A stretch of DNA of 34,233 nucleotides from contig CADAEX010000001.1 in the NCBI GenBank assembly GCA_902787125.1, forward strand, positions 1 through 34,233. Direction: 5' to 3'. Below the pieces are notes generated by a model that was not told the origin of the DNA, ran no database searches, and saw only the letters and a program-made list of their open reading frames with translations. The stretch's first letter is position 1. Each line of letters begins with the position of its first letter. A program made the translations under genes and the position numbers. The stretch comes from an uncultured Spirochaetaceae bacterium. Lineage in GTDB: Bacteria; Spirochaetota; Spirochaetia; CADAEX01. Below, one piece after another: positions 10,120-29,069 of this stretch.

Positions 10120-10155
10120 TTTTTTTATTTTAATACGCGTATTTTCGGTTGTCAA
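10120..10155 (-). promoter_or_regulatory. Strong promoter of EamA operon with 12-bp palindrome in the spacer
   Basis: On the minus strand a perfect TTGACA (10155-10150), 17 bases, TAAAAT (10132-10127), then 9 bases to the ATG at 10117, giving a predicted start near 10120. The perfect palindrome AATACGCGTATT (10132-10143) occupies most of the spacer, where a bound repressor would block RNA polymerase. The regulator is unknown. Confidence 0.55.
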
Positions 10156-10177
10156 TTCAGAAAGCTCAGTCCTATTC

Positions 10178-10206
10178 TTGCATATATAATAATTATAGGA
10201 TATTCT
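10178..10206 (+). promoter_or_regulatory. Possible uvrA promoter
   Basis: TTGCAT (10178-10183), 17 bases, TATTCT (10201-10206), predicting a start near 10213 and a leader of about 26 nt. Hexamer matches are weak; a TATAAC at 10215-10220 is an alternative -10 without a -35. The uvrA start has GGAG 4 nt upstream. Confidence 0.3.
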
Positions 10207-10238
10207 TTACTCTGTATAACTATGTACTTTGGAGTATT

Positions 10239-13064
10239 ATGAATAAGATTATTATAAAAGGGGCAAGGGAGCACAACCTCAAGAATATTGATGTGGAGCT
10301 GCCCAGAGATCAGCTTGTGGTCATATCCGGCTTGAGCGGCTCCGGGAAGTCATCCCTGGCCTTTGATACTATATTTGCTGAGGGACAGCGGCGCTATGTG
10401 GAATCCCTCTCATCCTATGCCAGGATGTTCCTGGGGCGGATGGAAAAGCCTGACCTGGATTATATTGAGGGCCTTTCTCCTGCCATCTCCATAGAGCAGA
10501 AGACCACCCACAGAAACCCCCGTTCCACAGTTGGAACTGTAACAGAGATATATGACTATTTCCGTCTTCTCTTTGCCCGTATCGGCGTGGTGCATTGTCC
10601 TCAGTGCGGCAGGGAGATTCATGAGCAGTCTGTGGACCAGATCCTGGATGTGATCTATGCATTTCCCGACGGAACCAAGATGACAGTTCTGGCTCCTATG
10701 GTCTATGGAAAGAAGGGGGAGCACGAGAAGCTTATCTCCGATGCTGCCAAGGCAGGCTTTGCCCGGATCAGACTGAATGGGGAAATAAGGGAGCTTACCG
10801 AGACCATAACACTGGACAAGAAGAAAAAGCATTCCATCGACATAGTGGTGGACCGTATCAAGAAGAGCCAGGAGAACAAGAGCCGACTCAGCGAGGCTGT
10901 GGAGACAGCTGTCCATACCAGCGGCGGCCGCGTCATTGTCTCTGTAATGGAGGAGGGGGGCAGCAGCAAGGACTACTACTTCTCAGAGAAGAACTCATGT
11001 CCAGACTGCAACATCAGTATTCCGGAACTGCAGCCAAGGCTTTTCTCCTTCAACAACCCATACGGCGCCTGCCCATCCTGTGCAGGACTTGGCATAACCA
11101 TGGAGTATGACGAGAAGCTTATAATGCCGGACACGAGCCTTTCCTACAACGAGGGGGGCATACTGCCTTTCACACCCAAGTCGGCCTGGTACCACAGCTG
11201 GTTCGAGGCATTGGCCAAGGCATATAACTTCTCCCTGGACACACCACTCAAGGATCTGCCCAAGAAGATAATGCACATCCTTTACCACGGCTCCGACAAG
11301 GTGCTCCATATCTCCTACAAGAGCAGGCAGGGAGACCATACATCGGACTACAACAAGCCTTTCCCAGGCATCTTCAAGGAGCTGGAGCGGCGGCACAGGG
11401 GATCCTTCTCCGACAGCATGAGGGAATACATAGAATCCTTCATGAGCCAGCGGGAATGCACCGCCTGCCACGGCGCCCGCCTCAGGCCCGAGGCCCTGGC
11501 TGTCACTATCGGCGGCAGGAACATAGAGCAGCTTACATCATCCTCAGTGCAGGAGCTTAAAGCATTCTTTGACAAGCTGGAGCTCTCCGACACGGAGAAG
11601 CAGATTTCAGGTCAGATCATGAAGGAGATCAAGGCACGTCTTCAGTTCCTGGATTCTGTAGGGCTTGGCTACCTGACCCTGAACAGAAAGGCGGCCACCC
11701 TGTCAGGGGGCGAGGCCCAGCGCATAAGGCTGGCCACCCAGATCGGCAGCTCCCTGGTGGGTGTCCTCTATATACTGGATGAGCCTACCATAGGTCTCCA
11801 CCAGCGGGACAACGAGAAGCTTATAGATACACTCAAACATCTGCGGGATATAGGCAACACCCTTATTGTGGTGGAGCATGATGAGCAGACTATCAGAGCT
11901 GCCGACTATGTGGTGGAGCTGGGCCCCGGCGCCGGTGTCCACGGCGGCAGCATAGTTGCCCAGGGGACAGTGAAGGAACTTCTCAAGAACAAGAAGAGCA
12001 TAACTGCAAAGTTCCTGAACGGTGAGGAGAAGGTGGAGGTCAAGGAGAAGACCCGGATTCCCAACAATCATTGGATAACCATAAAAGGGGCAAAGGAGCA
12101 TAACCTCAAGAACATCGATGTGAAGTTCCCCCTGGGCAAGCTGGTGGTTGTGACTGGTGTATCAGGCAGCGGCAAGTCCAGCCTGGTGAACGACATCCTG
12201 TTCCCGGCCGCCTACAACCGGCTCAACCGTGCCTCTGAACCGGAGGGTGCATATAAGAGCATCTCCGGCCTTGAATACATAGACAAGATCATAAACATAG
12301 ACCAGTCGGCAATCGGACGCACACCCCGGTCCAACCCGGCCACATATGTGGAGGTCTTCGGAGCCCTCCGGGACCTGTTTGCCGAAGTGCCCGAGGCAAA
12401 GGCCAAAGGCTACAAGCCGGGCCGGTTCTCCTTCAATGTGAAGGGCGGCCGGTGCGAGAACTGCGAGGGTGGCGGCACCATCAAGATCGAGATGCACTTC
12501 CTCCCCGATGTCTACATAACCTGTGATGTCTGCGGCGGAAAGCGGTTCAACAGGGACACCCTGGAGATCCGCTACAAGGGCAAGAACATCTACGAGGTGC
12601 TGGAGATGACAGTGGAGGAGGCCTGCCTCTTCTTCAAGAACAACACGATCATAAGCCGCAAGCTCAATGCTCTGCGGGATGTAGGCCTTGGCTATATAAA
12701 GCTGGGACAGTCGGCCCTGACTCTGTCGGGCGGCGAGGCCCAGCGTGTCAAGCTGGCCTTTGAGCTTTCCAAGGTCAGCACCGGCAAGACCCTCTACATA
12801 CTGGATGAGCCTACCACAGGATTACATTTTGCCGACGTCAAGCAGCTTATGGAAGTTATAGAGAAGATTGTGGCCAAGGGCAATTCCGTGGTGATAATCG
12901 AGCACAATATGGATGTCATCAGAATGGCAGACTACATAATAGACTTAGGCCCTGAAGGGGGCACCGGCGGCGGCACAGTTGTGGCCGCAGGCACTCCCGA
13001 GGAGATTGCCAAATGTCCAGCCTCCTACACAGGCCGGTTCCTTAAGGAGATGTACCGCCTCTGA
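10239..13064 (+). CDS. uvrA: Excinuclease ABC subunit A
   Basis: 941 residues from the ATG at 10239, the usual UvrA size. The frame is open back to 10149, but MNKIIIKGAREHNLKNID is the standard start and has GGAG in front of it. Two ABC modules are complete: Walker A GLSGSGKSS at 31-39 and GVSGSGKSS in the second half, two LSGGEAQR signatures, and ILDEPTIGLH / ILDEPTTGLH Walker B regions. Zinc-binding cysteine pairs are visible (CPQCG, CPDC, CPSC, CTAC, CENC, CDVC). It recognises DNA damage with UvrB in nucleotide excision repair. The stop overlaps the start of the LptD-like gene as ATGA, a link I recall from other treponemes. Confidence 0.97.
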   Translation: MNKIIIKGAREHNLKNIDVELPRDQLVVISGLSGSGKSSLAFDTIFAEGQRRYVESLSSYARMFLGRMEKPDLDYIEGLSPAISIEQKTTHRNPRSTVGTVTEIYDYFRLLFARIGVVHCPQCGREIHEQSVDQILDVIYAFPDGTKMTVLAPMVYGKKGEHEKLISDAAKAGFARIRLNGEIRELTETITLDKKKKHSIDIVVDRIKKSQENKSRLSEAVETAVHTSGGRVIVSVMEEGGSSKDYYFSEKNSCPDCNISIPELQPRLFSFNNPYGACPSCAGLGITMEYDEKLIMPDTSLSYNEGGILPFTPKSAWYHSWFEALAKAYNFSLDTPLKDLPKKIMHILYHGSDKVLHISYKSRQGDHTSDYNKPFPGIFKELERRHRGSFSDSMREYIESFMSQRECTACHGARLRPEALAVTIGGRNIEQLTSSSVQELKAFFDKLELSDTEKQISGQIMKEIKARLQFLDSVGLGYLTLNRKAATLSGGEAQRIRLATQIGSSLVGVLYILDEPTIGLHQRDNEKLIDTLKHLRDIGNTLIVVEHDEQTIRAADYVVELGPGAGVHGGSIVAQGTVKELLKNKKSITAKFLNGEEKVEVKEKTRIPNNHWITIKGAKEHNLKNIDVKFPLGKLVVVTGVSGSGKSSLVNDILFPAAYNRLNRASEPEGAYKSISGLEYIDKIINIDQSAIGRTPRSNPATYVEVFGALRDLFAEVPEAKAKGYKPGRFSFNVKGGRCENCEGGGTIKIEMHFLPDVYITCDVCGGKRFNRDTLEIRYKGKNIYEVLEMTVEEACLFFKNNTIISRKLNALRDVGLGYIKLGQSALTLSGGEAQRVKLAFELSKVSTGKTLYILDEPTTGLHFADVKQLMEVIEKIVAKGNSVVIIEHNMDVIRMADYIIDLGPEGGTGGGTVVAAGTPEEIAKCPASYTGRFLKEMYRL

Positions 13065-16000
13065 TGAGAAAGCTTCTGCTGCTGTTTACAGTTCTGTTCC
13101 TCATTTCTGCATTCCCGGCCCTGGCCCAGGATGCTGGGGAACAGCCGGCTGGAACTGCACAGCAGGGCGACAAGGACACTCTTTTCTACCGCACCTTGGT
13201 TCGGGATATAGAGACTGCCAGCTACACCGAGCTGGTGGAGTGGTGCCGGACTGTGGGAGTGCCTGAGAATGGCGAAAGCGACACCCTTAAGAAGCGGCTT
13301 TTAGACTATTTTGAGCTTGAGAGCCAGCCCCCTGAGAAGAAGAACGGGGATACCTTCATCATCAGAAGTTCTGACAAGACCCGCTACTTCAATGTGGAGC
13401 AGGCAGACGAGAACTATGTCACCATAAGCGGCGGCGTAACACTGGAAGTCAACGAGGAGAAGGAGAATGTCCTCCACCAGATCCAGGCTGACAAGCTTGT
13501 CTACAACCAGAAGAAGCAGCTTATGACTGCCGAGGGCAATGTAATCTACACCAGGAAGGTCAAGGACAAGGAAGAGAAGTATTTCGGCGACAAGCTCACC
13601 TTTGATCTGGACGACTGGAGCGGAGTCTTCTTCCAGGGTATCTCTGAGAAGACCATAGATATGAAGGGTAACGATACCAAGTTCTTCTATTCCGGCGACA
13701 AGATATTCAAGTCGGGCAAGAATGTATCTGTCATGGAGAATGCCACCATCACCTCCAACGGCAATCCCGAGACCTCGTATTACAGGCTCAAGGCCAAGAA
13801 GATATGGCTTCTGGCGCCGGGAGAGTGGGGAGTGCGCAATGCTGTACTCTATGTGGGCAATGTCCCCATGTTCTACTTCCCCTTCTTCTTCAAGCCGGGA
13901 GACCGTTTTGTATTCCGTCCTTCAGTGGGATATCATGATGTGAAAGGACACTTTATCCAGACCACCACCTACTTCAAGGGAGAACCGACAGAAAGCGGCG
14001 AGAACCTCTCTTTCCTGGCAGCCTCAGATGCCGAGGACAGGCTTTACGAGAAGGAACTTAACGGCCTTTACCTTCGCCGTACCGACACTCTCAAGGAGAA
14101 CCCGGATGATGATTCATACGTCAAGCTCATGGTTGATGCCTACTATAACCTGGGACTTTACGGAGCTCTTCAGGGAGACCTGAACAAGACTGACCATATA
14201 AACGAGACCAAGTTCTATCTGGGTTTTGCCAAGACCCGTAACATATACGATTACTCAGGCTACAGCACTCCATACTATCAGTATGATGACGGCAGCCTGG
14301 ACGACTACTGGAACAAAGGCTATTTCGGCAGCACCGAGCTGCCATTCCGATACGGAGCAGAGCTGAATACCGGAATTGAGTTCAAATACTTCAAGTCCAC
14401 ACTCTCCTTCGATATCTATTCAGACCCGTATCTCCTCCGGGATTTCGAGAACCGCAGCGAGAACATGAACTGGGGCAAGATCCTGGGAATGGAGGAGGAT
14501 GTGGAGGATGAGGAAGACGAATATACCGGTGTCCGGGACCGTCTGTACTGGCTGTTCCACACTGAGTTCGATCCTACATTCAAGATTTTCGGCAACTATT
14601 TTGACCTTCAGGTGACCAAGCTTGACTTCTATATGAACTGGAAGAACAAGGCACGGGACATCTCCGGCTTCAAGGGACTTGATCCGTCTGAAGACAGATA
14701 TGTGGACCCAGGGCATAAGACCGATTACAGCTTCCCGGAGGCCACTTTCTACTATCCTGAGAACTATGTTCTTCCTGATCTGGCTGTCAAGGTGGACGGC
14801 ACTATCTTTGACCGGACTTTCAACAGGGACACTGCCCGGGAATCACGGGAGCAGCGCCGGGCTAAGGAGCTTGAGGAACGCAAGGCGGCCCAGGAGGCAG
14901 AGGAATCGGAGGAATCCGAGGAGGAGAAGGCAAGGAAGAAACAGCTTGCAGAGCAGCTCAAGGCTAAGGTCCAGTCTCCTTTTGCAGATGAGAAGGAGGA
15001 TGGGAAGGAGGAAATCTGGGGACTCCGTACCCCTGATGATATCTCTGATATCCCGATAACTCTCTATTCCGACAGGAACTTCTTTGAGCACAACCTGGGA
15101 TACCTGATCACCCCTAACTTCATCATAGATAACCGTCTCAAGGATGCCGATGTCCTTGTACCAAGCGATGTGGACTTTGACCGTACCTATTCTGTAATGC
15201 GTACATACGGTGAAGGAAAGCTCATGTACAAGGCCGGAATCCTGAATACACTGTTCACCATCAACGAGGATCTGGTGTTCAGCGGCGAGTACCGTAAGCA
15301 TGCCAACCGGGACGAGACTCTTACCGATAATGAGTGGGATAGCCTCAGACTTCAGGATTATATGTCTTCCAACTATCAGATCGAGAACGACCTGATGCTT
15401 AAGACTATGCCTCTTTTCATGTTTGACCGGATATCTGAAAGCTATCTTTCCTACTCGGTGGACACCATATTGTTCAAGAAGAGCTTTGACTATATAGACG
15501 ATAAGGATGATCCTGTATATGTTGAGGACACCTTCGAATGGGACAAGGAATATTTCAAGAAGCATGAGGCAGAGCTTATGCTCAGCTATCTTTCCGGCTG
15601 GCGGCAGTTCCAGACAGCCCGCTTCAAGACTGTTATGGAGCCTCTGAACAGGGAATTTGAGAATGAGGATATCATGCGCACCGGCCCCCTCACTTCATCA
15701 ATGTTCTTCAGGATGAAGGAGAATGATGATGGTGATGTCTTATACGATCCACTCAGGTTCACTGAGCGGCTTGAATATGGAAACAGCTATCTGCAGGGTA
15801 TTTACAGACAGAACCTGCAGCACAGCTATGCCCAGGATTACGAGCTGGAGGGCAAGATCAGCTTCTTCGATGACGACCTCTATTTCAAGCAGAGCTATAT
15901 GTATAATATTCACGAGGGACATCATCAGGAGGCAATATCAACTCTGAACCTGTGGTATCTGAACCTTATGTACAAGGCAGAGTGGATGCGCCCATACTAC

Positions 16001-16588
16001 TATGAGGATGGTGTAGGCTGGCTCCAGGAGGATGATGAGGATTTTGTTCCGTCAAAGTTTGTTGCCACATTGAACTTCTCCAAGTATGGAAAGCCTTTCT
16101 GGCGCAACAGGATAAGATATAAGACCGAGGCCAACATAGGGTACAACATGGATCTCCAGAAGTTCACCGACAACGCCCTGACTGCAAGCTTCGGCTTCCA
16201 TGCAAATATTTACAGGCTCTTTGATATCTCCTTCAAGACCACATCGGAGAACAACAGCACTTACCGCTATTCCAAGTCAAAGGCTGACAAAGTGGGTGAG
16301 GAATATATAAATCCGTTCACCGACCTGTGGAAATCCTTCTCCTTCTGGGACAAGGACAAACGGTATGAGTCAGGCTTCAAGCTGAAGAGCCTGGAGACAA
16401 AGATAGTACATCATCTGGGGGACTGGGATCTTTCCTATACCTACAAAGGATATCCTGAGCTGGATTCTTCGGGACAGACTCCGGAGTGGGACTGGAAGTC
16501 TGAGTTCTGCATCCTGGTGCAGTGGAACCCTATACCGGAGCTCAAGACCCAGGTCAGGAAGAACAAGGAAGACAGGTATACAATGTGA
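13064..16588 (+). CDS. lptD: LptD/OstA-like outer-membrane assembly protein
   Basis: 1174 residues, longer than usual LptD. Residues 1-21 are a signal peptide ending ALA-Q. Residues about 50-87 (SYTELVEWCRTVGVPENGESDTLKKRLLDYF) look like a SAP/helix-extension-helix motif. An LptA/OstA-like beta-jellyroll follows (ISGGVTLEVNEEKENVL, QIQADKLVYNQ, GNVIYTRKV), then the LptD hallmark LYVGNVPMFYFPFFFKPGDRF near 263-283, then a long aromatic-rich beta barrel. An acidic loop lies near 480 and a charged E/K/R-rich insert near 589-650. LptD places lipopolysaccharide in the outer leaflet; many treponemes are thought to lack classical LPS, so the cargo may be another glycolipid. Coupled by ATGA to uvrA before it and pgeF after it. 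Family good; symbol by homology. Confidence 0.82.
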   Translation: MRKLLLLFTVLFLISAFPALAQDAGEQPAGTAQQGDKDTLFYRTLVRDIETASYTELVEWCRTVGVPENGESDTLKKRLLDYFELESQPPEKKNGDTFIIRSSDKTRYFNVEQADENYVTISGGVTLEVNEEKENVLHQIQADKLVYNQKKQLMTAEGNVIYTRKVKDKEEKYFGDKLTFDLDDWSGVFFQGISEKTIDMKGNDTKFFYSGDKIFKSGKNVSVMENATITSNGNPETSYYRLKAKKIWLLAPGEWGVRNAVLYVGNVPMFYFPFFFKPGDRFVFRPSVGYHDVKGHFIQTTTYFKGEPTESGENLSFLAASDAEDRLYEKELNGLYLRRTDTLKENPDDDSYVKLMVDAYYNLGLYGALQGDLNKTDHINETKFYLGFAKTRNIYDYSGYSTPYYQYDDGSLDDYWNKGYFGSTELPFRYGAELNTGIEFKYFKSTLSFDIYSDPYLLRDFENRSENMNWGKILGMEEDVEDEEDEYTGVRDRLYWLFHTEFDPTFKIFGNYFDLQVTKLDFYMNWKNKARDISGFKGLDPSEDRYVDPGHKTDYSFPEATFYYPENYVLPDLAVKVDGTIFDRTFNRDTARESREQRRAKELEERKAAQEAEESEESEEEKARKKQLAEQLKAKVQSPFADEKEDGKEEIWGLRTPDDISDIPITLYSDRNFFEHNLGYLITPNFIIDNRLKDADVLVPSDVDFDRTYSVMRTYGEGKLMYKAGILNTLFTINEDLVFSGEYRKHANRDETLTDNEWDSLRLQDYMSSNYQIENDLMLKTMPLFMFDRISESYLSYSVDTILFKKSFDYIDDKDDPVYVEDTFEWDKEYFKKHEAELMLSYLSGWRQFQTARFKTVMEPLNREFENEDIMRTGPLTSSMFFRMKENDDGDVLYDPLRFTERLEYGNSYLQGIYRQNLQHSYAQDYELEGKISFFDDDLYFKQSYMYNIHEGHHQEAISTLNLWYLNLMYKAEWMRPYYYEDGVGWLQEDDEDFVPSKFVATLNFSKYGKPFWRNRIRYKTEANIGYNMDLQKFTDNALTASFGFHANIYRLFDISFKTTSENNSTYRYSKSKADKVGEEYINPFTDLWKSFSFWDKDKRYESGFKLKSLETKIVHHLGDWDLSYTYKGYPELDSSGQTPEWDWKSEFCILVQWNPIPELKTQVRKNKEDRYTM

Positions 16589-24931: not shown

Positions 24932-24967
24932 TGGTTGTATATTAATTAAATAGGGACTTTGTGTCAA
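24932..24967 (-). promoter_or_regulatory. tRNA-Asn promoter
   Basis: Minus-strand TTGACA (24967-24962), exactly 17 bases, TAATAT (24944-24939), start predicted near 24932, 5 nt before the tRNA. The -35 overlaps the stop codon of the Nudix gene, so the tRNA can be transcribed independently of that operon. Confidence 0.6.
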
Positions 24968-25527
24968 CTTATTTTTGGAAAAATATTTGACACAGCCCTG
25001 CAGCCATCAAGTAATATCTGATCGTGGTCAAAAGCCAGGAAACAGCCCCTGCTGTCCTTTTTCAGCTTTATGGTGCTGTTCTCTACAGTCTCAAGCCCTT
25101 TATCAGAGAAGGATACTGAAAACCATTCTGCATCCGAAGCATCATCTCCTGCCTTTACTTCAAGCCTGCTCCTGTCTACCACAGTGTAGTAGGCGGCAGA
25201 TACCACCCAGCCCCTAGGATCCCGTCCAGGTGCGCTGTAGACCCCCAGAAGGGCAGAGCTCACTCCAGTAAGGCCTGTCTCCTCCTGAAGCTCCCGGTAA
25301 GCAGTCTGGGCCAGAGTCTCGCCTTTGTCGGCAAAACCGCCCGGGAATGCCCAGCGGGTCATGAAAGGATGCCCTTTTCTCTGGATGAGCAGAACCTCAA
25401 GTCCAAACTCTCTGCTGACAGAAAACAGCACATTGTCTGCAGTAAGAGAAGGCTTTGGATACTTGTCAGAATTATACTGACGGAGAAATTCCTCCTCCGT
25501 CAGTCCTTTCTTATCTCTCAGTTCCAT
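24964..25527 (-). CDS. Nudix hydrolase (ADP-ribose pyrophosphatase-like)
   Basis: 187 residues. The Nudix box is perfect: G64, E70, R78-E79, E82-E83, G85 (GFADKGETLAQTAYRELQEETGL). VLLIQRKGHPFMTRWAFPGG before it and SAPGRDPRGWVVSAAYYTVV after it resemble the ADP-ribose/NUDT-NrtR type. It would hydrolyse a nucleoside diphosphate linked to another group, such as ADP-ribose. There is no DNA-binding domain, so it is not an NrtR repressor. The ATG lies 1 nt after the alcohol dehydrogenase stop, making it the last gene of that operon and hinting at nicotinamide-nucleotide housekeeping (inference). Confidence 0.88.
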   Translation of the reverse strand: MELRDKKGLTEEEFLRQYNSDKYPKPSLTADNVLFSVSREFGLEVLLIQRKGHPFMTRWAFPGGFADKGETLAQTAYRELQEETGLTGVSSALLGVYSAPGRDPRGWVVSAAYYTVVDRSRLEVKAGDDASDAEWFSVSFSDKGLETVENSTIKLKKDSRGCFLAFDHDQILLDGCRAVSNIFPKIS

Positions 25528-25528
25528 A

Positions 25529-26746
25529 TCAGAAATCTACTTCTGTGTCGTAGTAGCAGCACTTGAGAAGCTTTTCCATCTCTGCCTGGTTAGGCTGTCT
25601 TGGGTTTGAACCTGTGCAGGCATCCAGGAGAGCGTTCTTTGCAATATCCGGAAGTCTCTTGAGGAATACATCCTCAGGAACAAAGCCCTGCTCGACAGGG
25701 TAGCTGTCTGCGCCGTAGTTCTTGATGCAGTGAGGGATGTTCAGCTTGTCGTTGAAACCTCTGATGTATTTGATGAGGGCTGCTACCTTCTCATCGTCAT
25801 TCTTTCCGCCCAGCTTCATGTAGTCTGCGATTACGCCATAGCGCTTCTTTGCCTCAGGGTTCTTTGCATTGTAAGCAATAACTTTAGGCAGGTACATTGC
25901 GTTTGCCGCACCATGGATGATGTGTGCTCCCAGGTCTGCAAAGACAGCTCCTGTCTTGTGGGCCATGGAGTGTACAATTCCCAGAAGTCCGGAGGAGAAT
26001 GCGATTCCGGCAAGACACTGTGCGCTGTGCATGTTGTCCCGAGCCTTCATGTCGCCGTTGTAGGAGTCAACCAGATCTCTCTGGATCATCTCGATGGCAT
26101 GGATTGCAGGTGCGTCGGTAAAGTCGCTGTGGACTGTGGATACATAAGCCTCGATTGCGTGTGTAAGAGCATCCATTCCTGTGTGGGCAACCAGTTTCTT
26201 TGGCATAGTCTCTGCCAGATCAGGGTCTACAATTGCAACATCCGGAGTGATCTGGAAGTCTGCGATAGGGTATTTGATACCTTTCTGGTAGTCGGTGATG
26301 ATTGAGAATGCTGTAACTTCTGTAGCTGTTCCGGAAGTGGATGATACAGCACAGAACTTAGCCTTTGTGCGCAGCTTCGGCAGGCCGAATACCTTGCACA
26401 TGTCCTCGAATGTTGTCTCTGGATACTCATATTTAATCCACATTGCCTTTGCGGCATCGATAGGGGAGCCTCCGCCGATTGCCACAATCCAGTCAGGCTT
26501 GAACTCCTGCATGACAGCAGCGCCTTTCATTACTGTATCTACTGATGGATCAGGCTCGATTCCCTCGAAGAGAGTAACCTTCATTCCAGCTTCTTCCAGA
26601 TATTTCTGTGCCCGGTCCAGGAACCCGAATTTCTTCATGCTTCCGCCGCCGACGCATATGATAGCTCTTTTTCCTTCCAGTGTCTTAAGCGCCTCAAGCG
26701 CTCCCTTACCATGGTAAATGTCTCTTGGGTTAGTAAATCTCTGCAT
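25529..26746 (-). CDS. Iron-type (group III) alcohol dehydrogenase
   Basis: 405 residues. The dinucleotide-binding segment is IICVGGGSMKKFGFLDRA with GGGSPIDAAKAMW. Metal ligands are in the usual places: GMDALTHAIEAY (Asp and His), GIVHSMAHKTGA (His), and HGAANAMYLP (His). It resembles butanol/ethanol dehydrogenases reducing aldehydes with NAD(P)H; the coenzyme is not certain. A strong AAAGGAG ribosome site suggests high expression. It lies 21 nt after the PHP gene and directly before the Nudix gene. In a fermenting gut spirochaete it would dispose of electrons as alcohol. Confidence 0.93.
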   Translation of the reverse strand: MQRFTNPRDIYHGKGALEALKTLEGKRAIICVGGGSMKKFGFLDRAQKYLEEAGMKVTLFEGIEPDPSVDTVMKGAAVMQEFKPDWIVAIGGGSPIDAAKAMWIKYEYPETTFEDMCKVFGLPKLRTKAKFCAVSSTSGTATEVTAFSIITDYQKGIKYPIADFQITPDVAIVDPDLAETMPKKLVAHTGMDALTHAIEAYVSTVHSDFTDAPAIHAIEMIQRDLVDSYNGDMKARDNMHSAQCLAGIAFSSGLLGIVHSMAHKTGAVFADLGAHIIHGAANAMYLPKVIAYNAKNPEAKKRYGVIADYMKLGGKNDDEKVAALIKYIRGFNDKLNIPHCIKNYGADSYPVEQGFVPEDVFLKRLPDIAKNALLDACTGSNPRQPNQAEMEKLLKCCYYDTEVDF

Positions 26747-26767: not shown

Positions 26768-27472
26768 TTATTTCAGAACTATTCTGTTGTTCTGGAGGCT
26801 GTCACGGAGTGCTGCGAAGCTTTTCTCCTCTACATCAATGTAGAGCTGCTTCTTTGCCACATCATCAAGGTAGTGGGCATCGGAGTCGGATATGACAGGG
26901 TATTTTGCATAGTCCTTGGCGTTGGCCGGATTGAATACCTCGATGGCAGTATATGTGGCATCGGGGAGGAACCCCAGCTGGGATACTATGGAAAAGACAG
27001 GCTTGTCCACATGGGCCGGGATGAAAAGACCGTTGCGGAAGAACACCTCTTCCCGGACATCATCTATGGAAAGGCCGCTGGCGTTGCCCAGGTACTTCTC
27101 GACTTCCCCAAGAATCTCCTCATTCTCGTCCACGTAGACCTGATCGCCGAAGACTTCGGGCTTGTTCTCAATATCAGGCATATATTTATAGACAAATTCG
27201 GAGAATTCAAGTGCTGTCTCCACATCTTCGAACAGGCACACGAGGTGTGCTTCCTCGCTGGAGGTGACCTCCATGCCGTAGAGGCTCCAGAGTCCCTGCT
27301 GGGCACAGTTTGCCTTGAATGCAGGGCAGTTCAGGGCTGTGTTGTGGTCGGTGAGGGCCACCAGGTCAAGCCCTTTCTCCTTTGCCTTTTCCGCAATGGC
27401 GGCAGGTGACATCTCCAGCGAGGCACATGGGGATACACAGGAATGAATATGGAAATCGGCTCTGACCAGCAT
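26768..27472 (-). CDS. PHP-domain phosphoesterase
   Basis: 234 residues, a stand-alone PHP domain. Metal ligands are visible: DFHIHSCVSP (H-x-H), ALTDHNTALN (D-H), GMEVTSSEEAHLV (E and H), FIPAHVDKP (H), and ISDSDAHY (D-x-H). It should hydrolyse a phosphate ester; nucleotide and polynucleotide substrates are known for relatives. Its ATG shares a base with the stop of the second DRTGG-like gene. Genes of this type occur next to DRTGG and HATPase genes in [FeFe]-hydrogenase operons of clostridia and Thermotogales, from memory. Specific role unknown. Confidence 0.85.
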   Translation of the reverse strand: MLVRADFHIHSCVSPCASLEMSPAAIAEKAKEKGLDLVALTDHNTALNCPAFKANCAQQGLWSLYGMEVTSSEEAHLVCLFEDVETALEFSEFVYKYMPDIENKPEVFGDQVYVDENEEILGEVEKYLGNASGLSIDDVREEVFFRNGLFIPAHVDKPVFSIVSQLGFLPDATYTAIEVFNPANAKDYAKYPVISDSDAHYLDDVAKKQLYIDVEEKSFAALRDSLQNNRIVLK

Positions 27473-27804
27473 CAGTCCTTCATTTTTTCAGCAACTTTTG
27501 CAGATGCCTCAAACTGGGTCTCGGCTGTCTTGAAGAGAGCTACGTCGTTATCGTTGGCAGCTTCGATCATGTCTGAAGGGATAGCACGCTTGTTGCAGAC
27601 CAGTATAGCCCTGATTCCAGCCAGTGTAGCCACAGCGATAGTGTTCTTGTGTGCCTGGATGGTGATAAGGATGGAATCGGATGGGGCATTTGCCATGACA
27701 TCGCTCAAGAGGTCGCCGGTGTATCCAGCCTTGATTTCAAAATCTTCCATCTCATTCTTTGTCTCTCTGGTATAACCCAGTGCTTCTAAATCACTTACTT
27801 TCAT
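27472..27804 (-). CDS. Small DRTGG-like domain protein (second copy)
   Basis: 110 residues: MKVSDLEALGYTRET, then YTGDLLSDVMANAPSDSILITIQAHKNTIAVATLAGIRAILVCN, a Rossmann-like beta-alpha pattern that resembles small DRTGG-domain proteins. The motif after which the family is named is not literally present, so the call rests on overall similarity and context. It contains no catalytic motif I recognise and may bind a ligand or nucleotide. It starts inside the end of the CBS/HATPase gene (14-nt overlap) and shares a base with the PHP start. Moderately sure of family, unsure of function. Confidence 0.6.
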   Translation of the reverse strand: MKVSDLEALGYTRETKNEMEDFEIKAGYTGDLLSDVMANAPSDSILITIQAHKNTIAVATLAGIRAILVCNKRAIPSDMIEAANDNDVALFKTAETQFEASAKVAEKMKD

Positions 27805-28741
27805 CTTCTTCGTTCCCTAAATTGATTTTTATTTTTACTTCCGTACCTGTAACGTCGGAAGCTATCTGGAAGTCATTGCTGACTCTCTTTACATTCGGAA
27901 GACCCATTCCTGCGCCGAAGCCCTGGGACCTTATCCATTCGCTGGCTGTGGAGAAGCCGTCGGTGAGAGCTTTCTCCAGGTCTGGTATGCCGGGCCCCTT
28001 GTCCTGGGTCTTTATCATTATTGCATCGGGCAGAAGCTGGAATATAAGGACACCGCCGTCGGAATGGACAACCAGGTTTATCTCCAGCTCATAGGCCGCT
28101 ATGGAGACACGTCGGATTATACTCTGCTTTATTCCCCGTTCCTTGAGGATCTTCTTGATCTCGGAGGTGACCTTTCCGGCATTCTCAAAGTCGTACTTGT
28201 GGACTATGAACTGACGGTAGATCACTGTATCAGGTCTTATATCGGAAGGGTCCGGGTCGCTTAAGCGCATATTGAGCTTGTCATATTTCTGCAGCTGTTT
28301 GTTGATATTGTTAAGCATGGCGGCAGTAAGGTCACGGGCCGTTATCATGCCGGTGAGCTCTTTGTTCTTGTTTATTACCGGGAACCGTCTGAATTTGAAT
28401 TTATTGAAATAGTTGATGGCGAAGGATATAGGCATATCCTCTTCCAGCAGAATCACATCCCTGGACATGTACTTGCTTACTTTCTCGTCCAGGTTGCCGT
28501 TGTCATAGCAGGCCATGATGTCATAAAGACTTAAGATTCCTGCCAGTCTGTTCCCATCTACAACAGGAAGTCCGGTAAGGCCGTTATCCCTCATGATATT
28601 CTTTGCTGAGCGCATAGTATCGTCAGGAGCTACCTTCATAGGGTTGGCATTCATAGCCTCCTTGACCCTGACGGTGTAGATGCTCTCAAGAATAACTTCG
28701 TGAGAATCGTTTACGAAAAGAAGATTATTTACACTTCCCAA
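27791..28741 (-). CDS. CBS-pair protein fused to an anti-sigma-type HATPase domain
   Basis: 316 residues. Two CBS motifs form residues 26 to about 145 (VKEAMNANPMKVAPDDTM, GLTGLPVVDGNRLAGILSLYDIM; VSKYMSRDVILLEEDMPI, RRFPVINKNKELTGMITARDL). Residues about 175-311 form a GHKL ATPase of the RsbW/anti-sigma kind: N-box YELEINLVVHSDGG, G1 DKGPGIPD, and GFGAGMGLPNVKR. CBS pairs sense adenosine nucleotides, so the kinase-like domain may be controlled by energy charge. The start is a TTG at 28741, since no closer in-frame ATG or GTG exists, overlapping the preceding gene by 17 nt. No sigma factor or anti-anti-sigma gene is nearby; the target is unknown. Confidence 0.82.
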   Translation of the reverse strand: MGSVNNLLFVNDSHEVILESIYTVRVKEAMNANPMKVAPDDTMRSAKNIMRDNGLTGLPVVDGNRLAGILSLYDIMACYDNGNLDEKVSKYMSRDVILLEEDMPISFAINYFNKFKFRRFPVINKNKELTGMITARDLTAAMLNNINKQLQKYDKLNMRLSDPDPSDIRPDTVIYRQFIVHKYDFENAGKVTSEIKKILKERGIKQSIIRRVSIAAYELEINLVVHSDGGVLIFQLLPDAIMIKTQDKGPGIPDLEKALTDGFSTASEWIRSQGFGAGMGLPNVKRVSNDFQIASDVTGTEVKIKINLGNEEDESK

Positions 28742-29069
28742 GCAATTTCCCCAATTCGATGCAGGTAGTAAACATATTGTTCTTGGTGGAAATAAGGGTC
28801 AGCCCAGATTCCTCTGCCAGTGTCTTCATGGAAGTCTGGGGCCGTTTGCCATTTATAAGGATAACTCCGCGGGCTTCCACAATGTCGGCAGTCCGTACCA
28901 CCTGGTCAGTTGTAAGGGCCGTAACCAATATTCTGTTATCTTCATCTCCAACCAGAACTTCACTCATCATGTCTCCGGCAGAAACATTCTCAATAACAGC
29001 TGTATCAAAATCATTGCCTTTGTTTATTATCTCGCAGCTGATATGCTCAACAATCTCTTTGAAAGTCAT
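28725..29069 (-). CDS. Small DRTGG-like domain protein (first copy)
   Basis: 114 residues: IVEHISCEIINKGNDFDTAVIENVSAGDMMSEVLVGDEDNRILVTALTTDQVVRTADIVEARGVILINGKRP. The pattern of strands and the VSAGDMMSEVL / TADIVEARGVILINGK features resemble DRTGG-domain proteins found beside hydrogenase operons. It is the first gene of a six-gene minus-strand operon. AAGGA precedes the ATG by only 2 nt. A possible promoter is TTGTTT (29130-29125), 17 bases, TACAAT (29107-29102). It and the second DRTGG-like protein could form a pair with the CBS/HATPase protein between them. Function unknown. Confidence 0.6.
   Translation of the reverse strand: MTFKEIVEHISCEIINKGNDFDTAVIENVSAGDMMSEVLVGDEDNRILVTALTTDQVVRTADIVEARGVILINGKRPQTSMKTLAEESGLTLISTKNNMFTTCIELGKLLGKCK

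Follow-up and report, generated by a model that had tools for sequence, protein, structure and literature searches.

A CBS-HATPase gene of an uncultured Spirochaetaceae bacterium lies in a widely conserved four-gene cassette that tends to accompany hydrogenases

The window analysed here is a stretch of 34,233 nucleotides from the genome of an uncultured Spirochaetaceae bacterium (GenBank assembly GCA_902787125.1, contig CADAEX010000001.1, positions 1 to 34,233). The gene under study, at 27791-28741 on the minus strand, starts with TTG and encodes a protein of 316 aa in which a pair of CBS domains is fused to a SpoIIAB-like ATPase domain (CBS-HATPase). It belongs to a widely conserved cassette of four genes, DRTGG-A, CBS-HATPase, DRTGG-B and PHP, whose company tends to be hydrogen-making enzymes and not a sigma factor. 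Hydrogenase control is the most likely actual setting of CBS-HATPase, and our best explanation, held with moderate confidence, is that the cassette controls NAD-linked, often electron-bifurcating, hydrogenases by means of a sensor-kinase.

The gene neighbourhood was analysed with own-cluster profile models in the best 80 of at least 571 confirmed loci. The 80 loci come from at least 11 phyla, and their record titles name Spirochaetes, Verrucomicrobia/Kiritimatiellae/Lentisphaeria, Chloroflexi, Deltaproteobacteria, Planctomycetes, Cloacimonadota, Delongbacteria, Atribacteria, Nitrospirae, Acidobacteria-like names, TA06 and others. A DRTGG gene was present within 1.5 kb of the HATPase in 77/80 loci and a PHP gene in 63/80. 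A NuoE, NuoF, HydA, HydS or [NiFe] gene scoring at least 60 bits was found within 8 kb in 48/80 loci, and in 7/20 extra Spirochaetota loci, while the same gene set was found in 0/20 control regions (16.9 kb each, hand-picked from 10 Spirochaetota genomes). These control regions, all from one phylum, contained one Rex, one PHP and two weak HATP2 matches. The frequent gene order is DRTGG/CBS-HATPase/DRTGG/PHP followed by NuoE, a second HATPase, a thioredoxin-like ferredoxin, NuoF and a HoxU-like subunit; this order extends into [NiFe] subunits in some loci. In 45/80 loci a further HATPase is present within 8 kb, and Rex is located directly 5' of the cassette in 9/80. In six of these nine loci (L039, L044, L045, L047, L053 and L059), Rex lies between the cassette and an opposite-strand hydrogenase operon, a position which suggests one common NADH-controlled divergent promoter region.

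The co-occurrence of CBS-HATPase with hydrogenases was analysed in 246 genomes of the phylum with at least 90% completeness, 53 of which carry a full-length CBS-HATPase. An [FeFe] hydrogenase (PF02906) was present in 46/53 genomes with CBS-HATPase compared with 105/193 others (p 7e-6), and each of the remaining seven CBS-HATPase genomes has a full-length PF00374 match. Taken together, an [FeFe] or [NiFe] hydrogenase occurs in 53/53 genomes with CBS-HATPase and in 127/193 others (Fisher p 5e-9), although PF00374 may also detect relatives of the complex I type, in which case the figure of 127 would be too high. Both p values treat genomes as independent, with kinship uncorrected, and weak NiFe matches in G044, G056, G123 and G269 were excluded from the count. 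When genomes with only a CBS-less HATPase are included, a hydrogenase is present in 66/66. The hydrogenase association of the cassette is well supported.

The ATPase domain occupies aa 172-310 of the protein (27812-28228, minus strand). Pfam matched it to HATPase_c_2 (8.8e-7) and HATPase_c (3.2e-6), both above the curated cut-off. The AlphaFold model of CBS-HATPase has a mean predicted local distance difference test score (pLDDT) of 81.7 and a predicted template modelling score (pTM) of 0.58, a value at which the relative placement of the CBS and ATPase halves is unreliable. In VIA-align, the domain was closest to SpoIIAB chain 1til_E (Z 17.0, root-mean-square deviation 2.2, 133 residues), followed by 1l0o (16.8), 1tid (16.2), 1thn (16.1) and 1th8 (15.8). 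These five SpoIIAB entries are the sole ATPase-domain structures among the 50 VIA-align rows listed, in a table which re-examines Foldseek's own list, so that the SpoIIAB likeness leaves other GHKL folds possible.

The alignment placed the N-box at E218 to N222 (28076-28090), the G1 box DKGPGI at D247-I252 (27986-28003) and the G2 box GFGAGMGLPN at G274-N283 (27893-27922), all on the minus strand. E218, N222, DxGPGI and GFGAGMGLxN are invariant in 20/20 aligned sequences with 36-77% identity to the window protein; within the G2 box only P282 is nearly invariant. A regular-expression search over 121 HATPase segments found E-x3-N in 121, which is a loose pattern, DxGPG in 117 and the G2 box in 118. 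In the sister HATPase of the source genome, the N-box Glu and Asn align with those of SpoIIAB. We take this Glu to be the general base of the SpoIIAB kinase, a position at which histidine kinases presumably differ. The assignment as a histidine kinase was rejected, as no HisKA match was obtained (Pfam, E 0.1) and the CBS pair precedes the ATPase. The ATPase domain thus has intact SpoIIAB-like ATP-site motifs and fold. The fusion of a CBS pair to an anti-sigma-type ATPase, proposed in the first-pass annotation of this DNA, is borne out by Pfam, the alignment and the structure match, and the ATP-binding residues and conserved neighbours on which that proposal was to be judged are kept in 20/20 sequences and in 77/80 (DRTGG) and 63/80 (PHP) loci.

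Likewise, the CBS half is matched by Pfam in two stretches (E 1e-26, above the curated cut-off). The first CBS domain (28511-28666, minus strand, aa 26-77) has a nearly invariant S71 and D74 within an S/TxxD motif, and in the second (28316-28489, minus strand, about aa 85-142) T134 is nearly invariant and D137 invariant. Pfam, the alignment and the structure match agree on a tandem CBS fold in which each repeat carries S/TxxD, and this half matches AcuB and CBSX2 structures holding AMP, ADP or ATP. The S/TxxD motif is presumably the contact to the ribose. CBS-HATPase is a probable sensor of cell energy.

The two DRTGG proteins flank CBS-HATPase on the minus strand: DRTGG-A (28725-29069, 114 aa) upstream and DRTGG-B (27472-27804, 110 aa) downstream. 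DRTGG-B falls below the Pfam cut-off for both DRTGG (PF07085) and Hpr_kinase_N. Its AlphaFold model has a mean pLDDT of 96.7, and rows 1-5 of the Foldseek search are the DRTGG structures 2ioj, 3l2b and 3l31. The two families align with each other at profile level (probability 99.9), and both profiles match 3l2b/3l31, where CBS and DRTGG occupy one chain. Each protein has an invariant serine in a DL(M/L)SDV-like motif: Ser36 of DRTGG-A (codon 28962-28964, minus strand), a candidate phosphoacceptor conserved in 59/59 aligned rows, and Ser34 of DRTGG-B (codon 27703-27705, minus strand), conserved in 81/81 rows (80 distinct), one short row having been omitted from the 60 of A and one from the 82 of B. 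Over every row, the motif search gave 56/60 for DRTGG-A, 76/82 for DRTGG-B and 18/19 for CBS-less loci; alignments A2 and A3 comprise 27 and 35 DRTGG rows. The motif was absent in 7/7 DRTGG domains of other, longer proteins of related genomes, which are a subset of the longer-frame DRTGG loci, the others being partial over the domain or outside the set retrieved. In the DRTGG-B model, a strand precedes helix 33-39, with Ser34 near the N-terminus of this helix. The phosphorylated Ser of SpoIIAA is similarly placed, after a strand and near a helix N-terminus. Ser34 and Ser36 are candidate phosphosites, for which these features are suggestive only.

The fourth member, at 26768-27472 on the minus strand, encodes a PHP-domain putative phosphoesterase of 234 aa. 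In 46 rows, conservation is 95-100% at H8, H10, D42, H43, E68, H76, H154, D198 and H200, nine positions that would fit a working metal site. No solved-structure match to PHP was obtained at E 0.001.

Further evidence on the partners of the ATPase comes from sister HATPases that lack the CBS pair. The CBS-less set consists of 26 places, every one of which was read. HydS lies within 1.5 kb in 17/26 CBS-less loci compared with 0/100 CBS-fused loci (99 distinct, as the sets of 80 and 20 overlap by one record, L082 = L137), and DRTGG lies within 1.5 kb in 22/26 CBS-less loci. At 1.5-8 kb from the CBS-fused HATPase, HydS was found in 6/80 and 1/20 loci at 20 bits and in 0/80 and 1/20 at 60 bits. As the CBS-less sisters mostly adjoin a HydS-like [FeFe] protein, the transduction core appears to be common and the sensor to differ. 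Seven CBS-less HATPases (L131, L132 and L213-L217) are fused in-frame to DRTGG-B, with DRTGG-A just 5' (Pfam support); the coordinates of one such fusion are L131:8505-9293. A single-frame fusion of HATPase and HydS was also found at L123:9030-10757, inside a full hydrogenase operon. The fusions are direct hints of physical partnership, and the HATPase-DRTGG pairing is supported. The DRTGG proteins, which the first-pass annotation had named as candidate partners, are thus a reasonable choice, being the most constant neighbours and occurring as HATPase fusions in sister loci. An arrangement with the CBS domain on a gene of its own was considered for L131 and L132 and rejected, as the CBS domain found there is part of an MgtE magnesium transporter. 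At L120:7384-9192 (G000:C4), genes for a response-regulator-PP2C protein and a STAS protein are encoded on the same strand, and two ecf transporter genes separate them from a HydS-linked HATPase; homologues of this PP2C/STAS pair were seen in L119 (G003), and none in L118, a locus from the same genus.

The source genome is one of 12/246 genomes with both CBS-fused and CBS-less places. Its contig C155 carries Rex divergent from a NuoE-HATPase-TrxFd-NuoF-HydA operon, and the closest match of the NuoE encoded there is HydC of the solved bifurcating hydrogenases 7q4v and 8a6t. The NuoF (HydB) frame of this bifurcating hydrogenase, at L187:2268-3994, is broken and appears as two overlapping frames. 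The second HATPase of the genome is CBS-less and lies directly 5' of a gene for a 430-aa [FeFe] hydrogenase-like protein with an N-terminal ferredoxin domain, C-terminal iron-sulphur domains and no PAS match. The translation of this protein contains the C-terminal motif Cx2Cx4Cx16C, which the cited passages of PMC8163306 give for group D/C HydS; it is HydS-like by motif.

In the mechanism we infer, from ligand, kinase activity and substrate residue to PHP as the reversing enzyme and the output, the CBS pair would bind adenine nucleotides and thereby determine which state the SpoIIAB-like ATPase domain adopts. This domain would bind ATP and either phosphorylate the DRTGG proteins at the invariant Ser or release DRTGG by partner switching, and PHP would strip the phosphate from DRTGG. 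Free or modified DRTGG may then act on the hydrogenase complex or on hydrogenase expression, alongside the NADH-sensing repressor Rex. A more specific reading, which we offer tentatively, is a partner switch without a sigma factor, in which DRTGG replaces the STAS antagonist and PHP replaces PP2C, and in which a common SpoIIAB-like kinase core is plugged to an energy-charge sensor (CBS) or to a hydrogen sensor (HydS) and controls the main hydrogenases of anaerobes from many phyla. The HATPase-DRTGG fusions make both the sensor-kinase explanation and this sigma-free reading more likely.

Several observations weigh against the sensor-kinase explanation. Within 1.5 kb, the 20 extra Spirochaetota loci have DRTGG in 16 and PHP in only 10. 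No gene of the hydrogenase set lies within 8 kb in 32/80 loci, although many of the loci examined are cut short at contig ends, and among the 48 linked loci a catalytic or [NiFe] subunit is present in 22 and NuoE/NuoF alone in 26; since NuoE/F also occur in NAD-linked formate dehydrogenases, the neighbourhood alone is no proof of a hydrogenase in these 26 loci. In sequence comparison, CheA is the first match of the sister HATPase (E 0.0027), ahead of SpoIIAB (E 0.037). The three HATPase-DRTGG-B fusions whose translations were read have an altered G1 box (GQG or GKG), and the same three retain E-x3-N in the N-box as well as the G2 box. The DRTGG Ser could be structural. On the tree, which is based on 138 columns, has many unresolved forks and predates L212-L217, the CBS-linked and HydS-linked rows need one change; repeated sensor swapping was rejected because of this single change, and sister lines are indicated instead. 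Finally, the cassette of the source genome lies on a different contig from the hydrogenase operon. Given the position of Rex and the operon beside the cassette in the six loci listed above, the window cassette looks like one half of a divergent Rex/hydrogenase cluster that may have moved away.

The cassette might also work without phosphotransfer, as a CBS and DRTGG nucleotide-binding assembly in which the ATPase is a conformational switch directly binding and gating HydABC/NuoEF-type complexes. The presence of CBS and DRTGG in one chain in 3l2b/3l31, matched by both DRTGG profiles, speaks for such an assembly, the HATPase-DRTGG fusions fit a stable assembly and a kinase-substrate pair equally, and the frequent second HATPase shows that ATPase modules are common near such enzymes. 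However, E218 is invariant, the equivalent residue of the sister HATPase pairs with the N-box Glu of SpoIIAB, and a PHP phosphoesterase is part of the core. The invariant E218 and the core PHP make phospho-signalling the easier reading, and we regard the assembly without phosphotransfer as rather unlikely.

We consider a classical anti-sigma/STAS partner switch, with the ATPase binding a STAS protein or a sigma factor whose gene lies in another part of the genome, to be improbable. It would accord with the SpoIIAB-like fold, with the PP2C/STAS pair of G000 and G003 upstream of a HydS-linked HATPase, past two ecf genes, and with the presence in the genome of three STAS (PF01740) and six sigma-70 region 2 (PF04542) places. 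However, all of these STAS and sigma-70 places are on other contigs, and the window contig has no match to either family, in agreement with the statement of the first-pass annotation that a sigma or STAS partner is not nearby. Moreover, homologues of the STAS gene were found in just two searched loci, and L118, a same-genus locus, is not one of them; the HATPase-DRTGG fusions make this reading less likely. It is also very doubtful that in the source organism the cassette is untied from hydrogenase and regulates a local gene such as that for an alcohol dehydrogenase (another NADH sink), which follows PHP after 21 nt and is followed after 1 nt by a NUDIX gene, with the hydrogenase operon on another contig: a nearly identical alcohol dehydrogenase next to the cassette is limited to the close relatives L190, L005 and L007, none was found beside it in L191 although this is the same genus, and the hydrogenase tie crosses phyla.

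Among known systems, CBS-HATPase is like the SpoIIAB/RsbW anti-sigma serine kinases of Bacillus in its ATPase fold and N-box E-x3-N, and unlike them in the attached CBS pair, in its constant partners DRTGG and PHP and in a window without STAS or sigma. The HydS-like gene adjoining the CBS-less HATPases resembles the group D (M2e) [FeFe] HydS cluster of Thermoanaerobacter mathranii (TamHydS), as presented in the cited passages of PMC8163306, from which the window locus differs by a CBS pair in HydS's stead. The regulatory region of the Clostridium perfringens pyrophosphatase (3l2b, 3l31) also combines CBS and DRTGG, and the DRTGG-B model matches it with a template modelling score of 0.71-0.73 (query-normalised); there a single chain carries both, whereas here separate genes, an added ATPase and a Ser motif are found. 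The account of the Halanaerobium hydrogeniformans operon Halsa_1862-1871 differs from ours in being, in the cited passages of PMC4237134, an annotation list which proposes no mechanism, and the terms 'CBS domain' and 'DRTGG domain' are absent from PMC4237134.

Passages of other papers touch on single elements: an A1 cluster that has, in every Thermoanaerobacter strain, a histidine kinase and a group D-like hydrogenase located upstream (PMC3608648), a HATPase domain within group C1 hydrogenases of Hydrogenedentota (PMC11406978), HATPase and CBS entries in a neighbour table (PMC12727194), and a putatively sensory HydS (PMC13104023, PMC10055695). The CBS-HATPase/DRTGG/PHP cassette is undescribed in the cited passages. 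No paper linking CBS-HATPase, DRTGG and hydrogenase was found, which is a weak negative, as subscription literature lay mostly outside the search.

In the window, the minus-strand gene run is DRTGG-A, CBS-HATPase, DRTGG-B, PHP, alcohol dehydrogenase and NUDIX. The four cassette genes overlap successively by 17, 14 and 1 nt, and all genes of the run except that for DRTGG-B have Pfam matches above the curated cut-off. A TTG start is found in 6/7 same-genus loci (own counted), with ATG at the equal codon in L009. The first-pass annotation was exact on the TTG start and the 17-nt overlap (the upstream gene ends at 28725), but the low stoichiometry it derived from them appears unsupported, given the ATG of L009. 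Its interpretation was supported on the fusion, the motifs, the neighbours and DRTGG, was unsupported on stoichiometry, and missed the NAD-linked hydrogenase, Rex, PHP and the HydS-linked sisters.

The two remaining genes of the run, both assigned by Pfam, are a possible operon tail. The first (25529-26746, minus strand) encodes a stand-alone iron alcohol dehydrogenase, closest to the C-terminal half of the bifunctional AdhE, and lies directly 3' of PHP; the second (24964-25527, minus strand) encodes a NUDIX hydrolase. Only distant relatives of the alcohol dehydrogenase were found in L131 and L132. The promoter scan found 9 sites compared with 7.0 expected, and 12 terminator-like sites were found compared with 4.8 expected. 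Two very long neighbouring open reading frames of 971 and 1174 aa are present at 10149-16588 on the plus strand. A role of the cassette as a defence system was rejected, as PADLOC gave no match for CBS-HATPase or either DRTGG protein, and PHP weakly matches PDC-M49A.

The HATPase-DRTGG core offers concrete partners, natural fusions and one testable residue per DRTGG protein. If the proposed control is true, many H2-producing anaerobes would adjust their H2 metabolism to both ATP level and H2 pressure by way of related protein switches, with consequences for fermentation balance, H2 transfer between species and biohydrogen work. The sigma-free switch, if true, would be the missing signal-transduction route of group D HydS.
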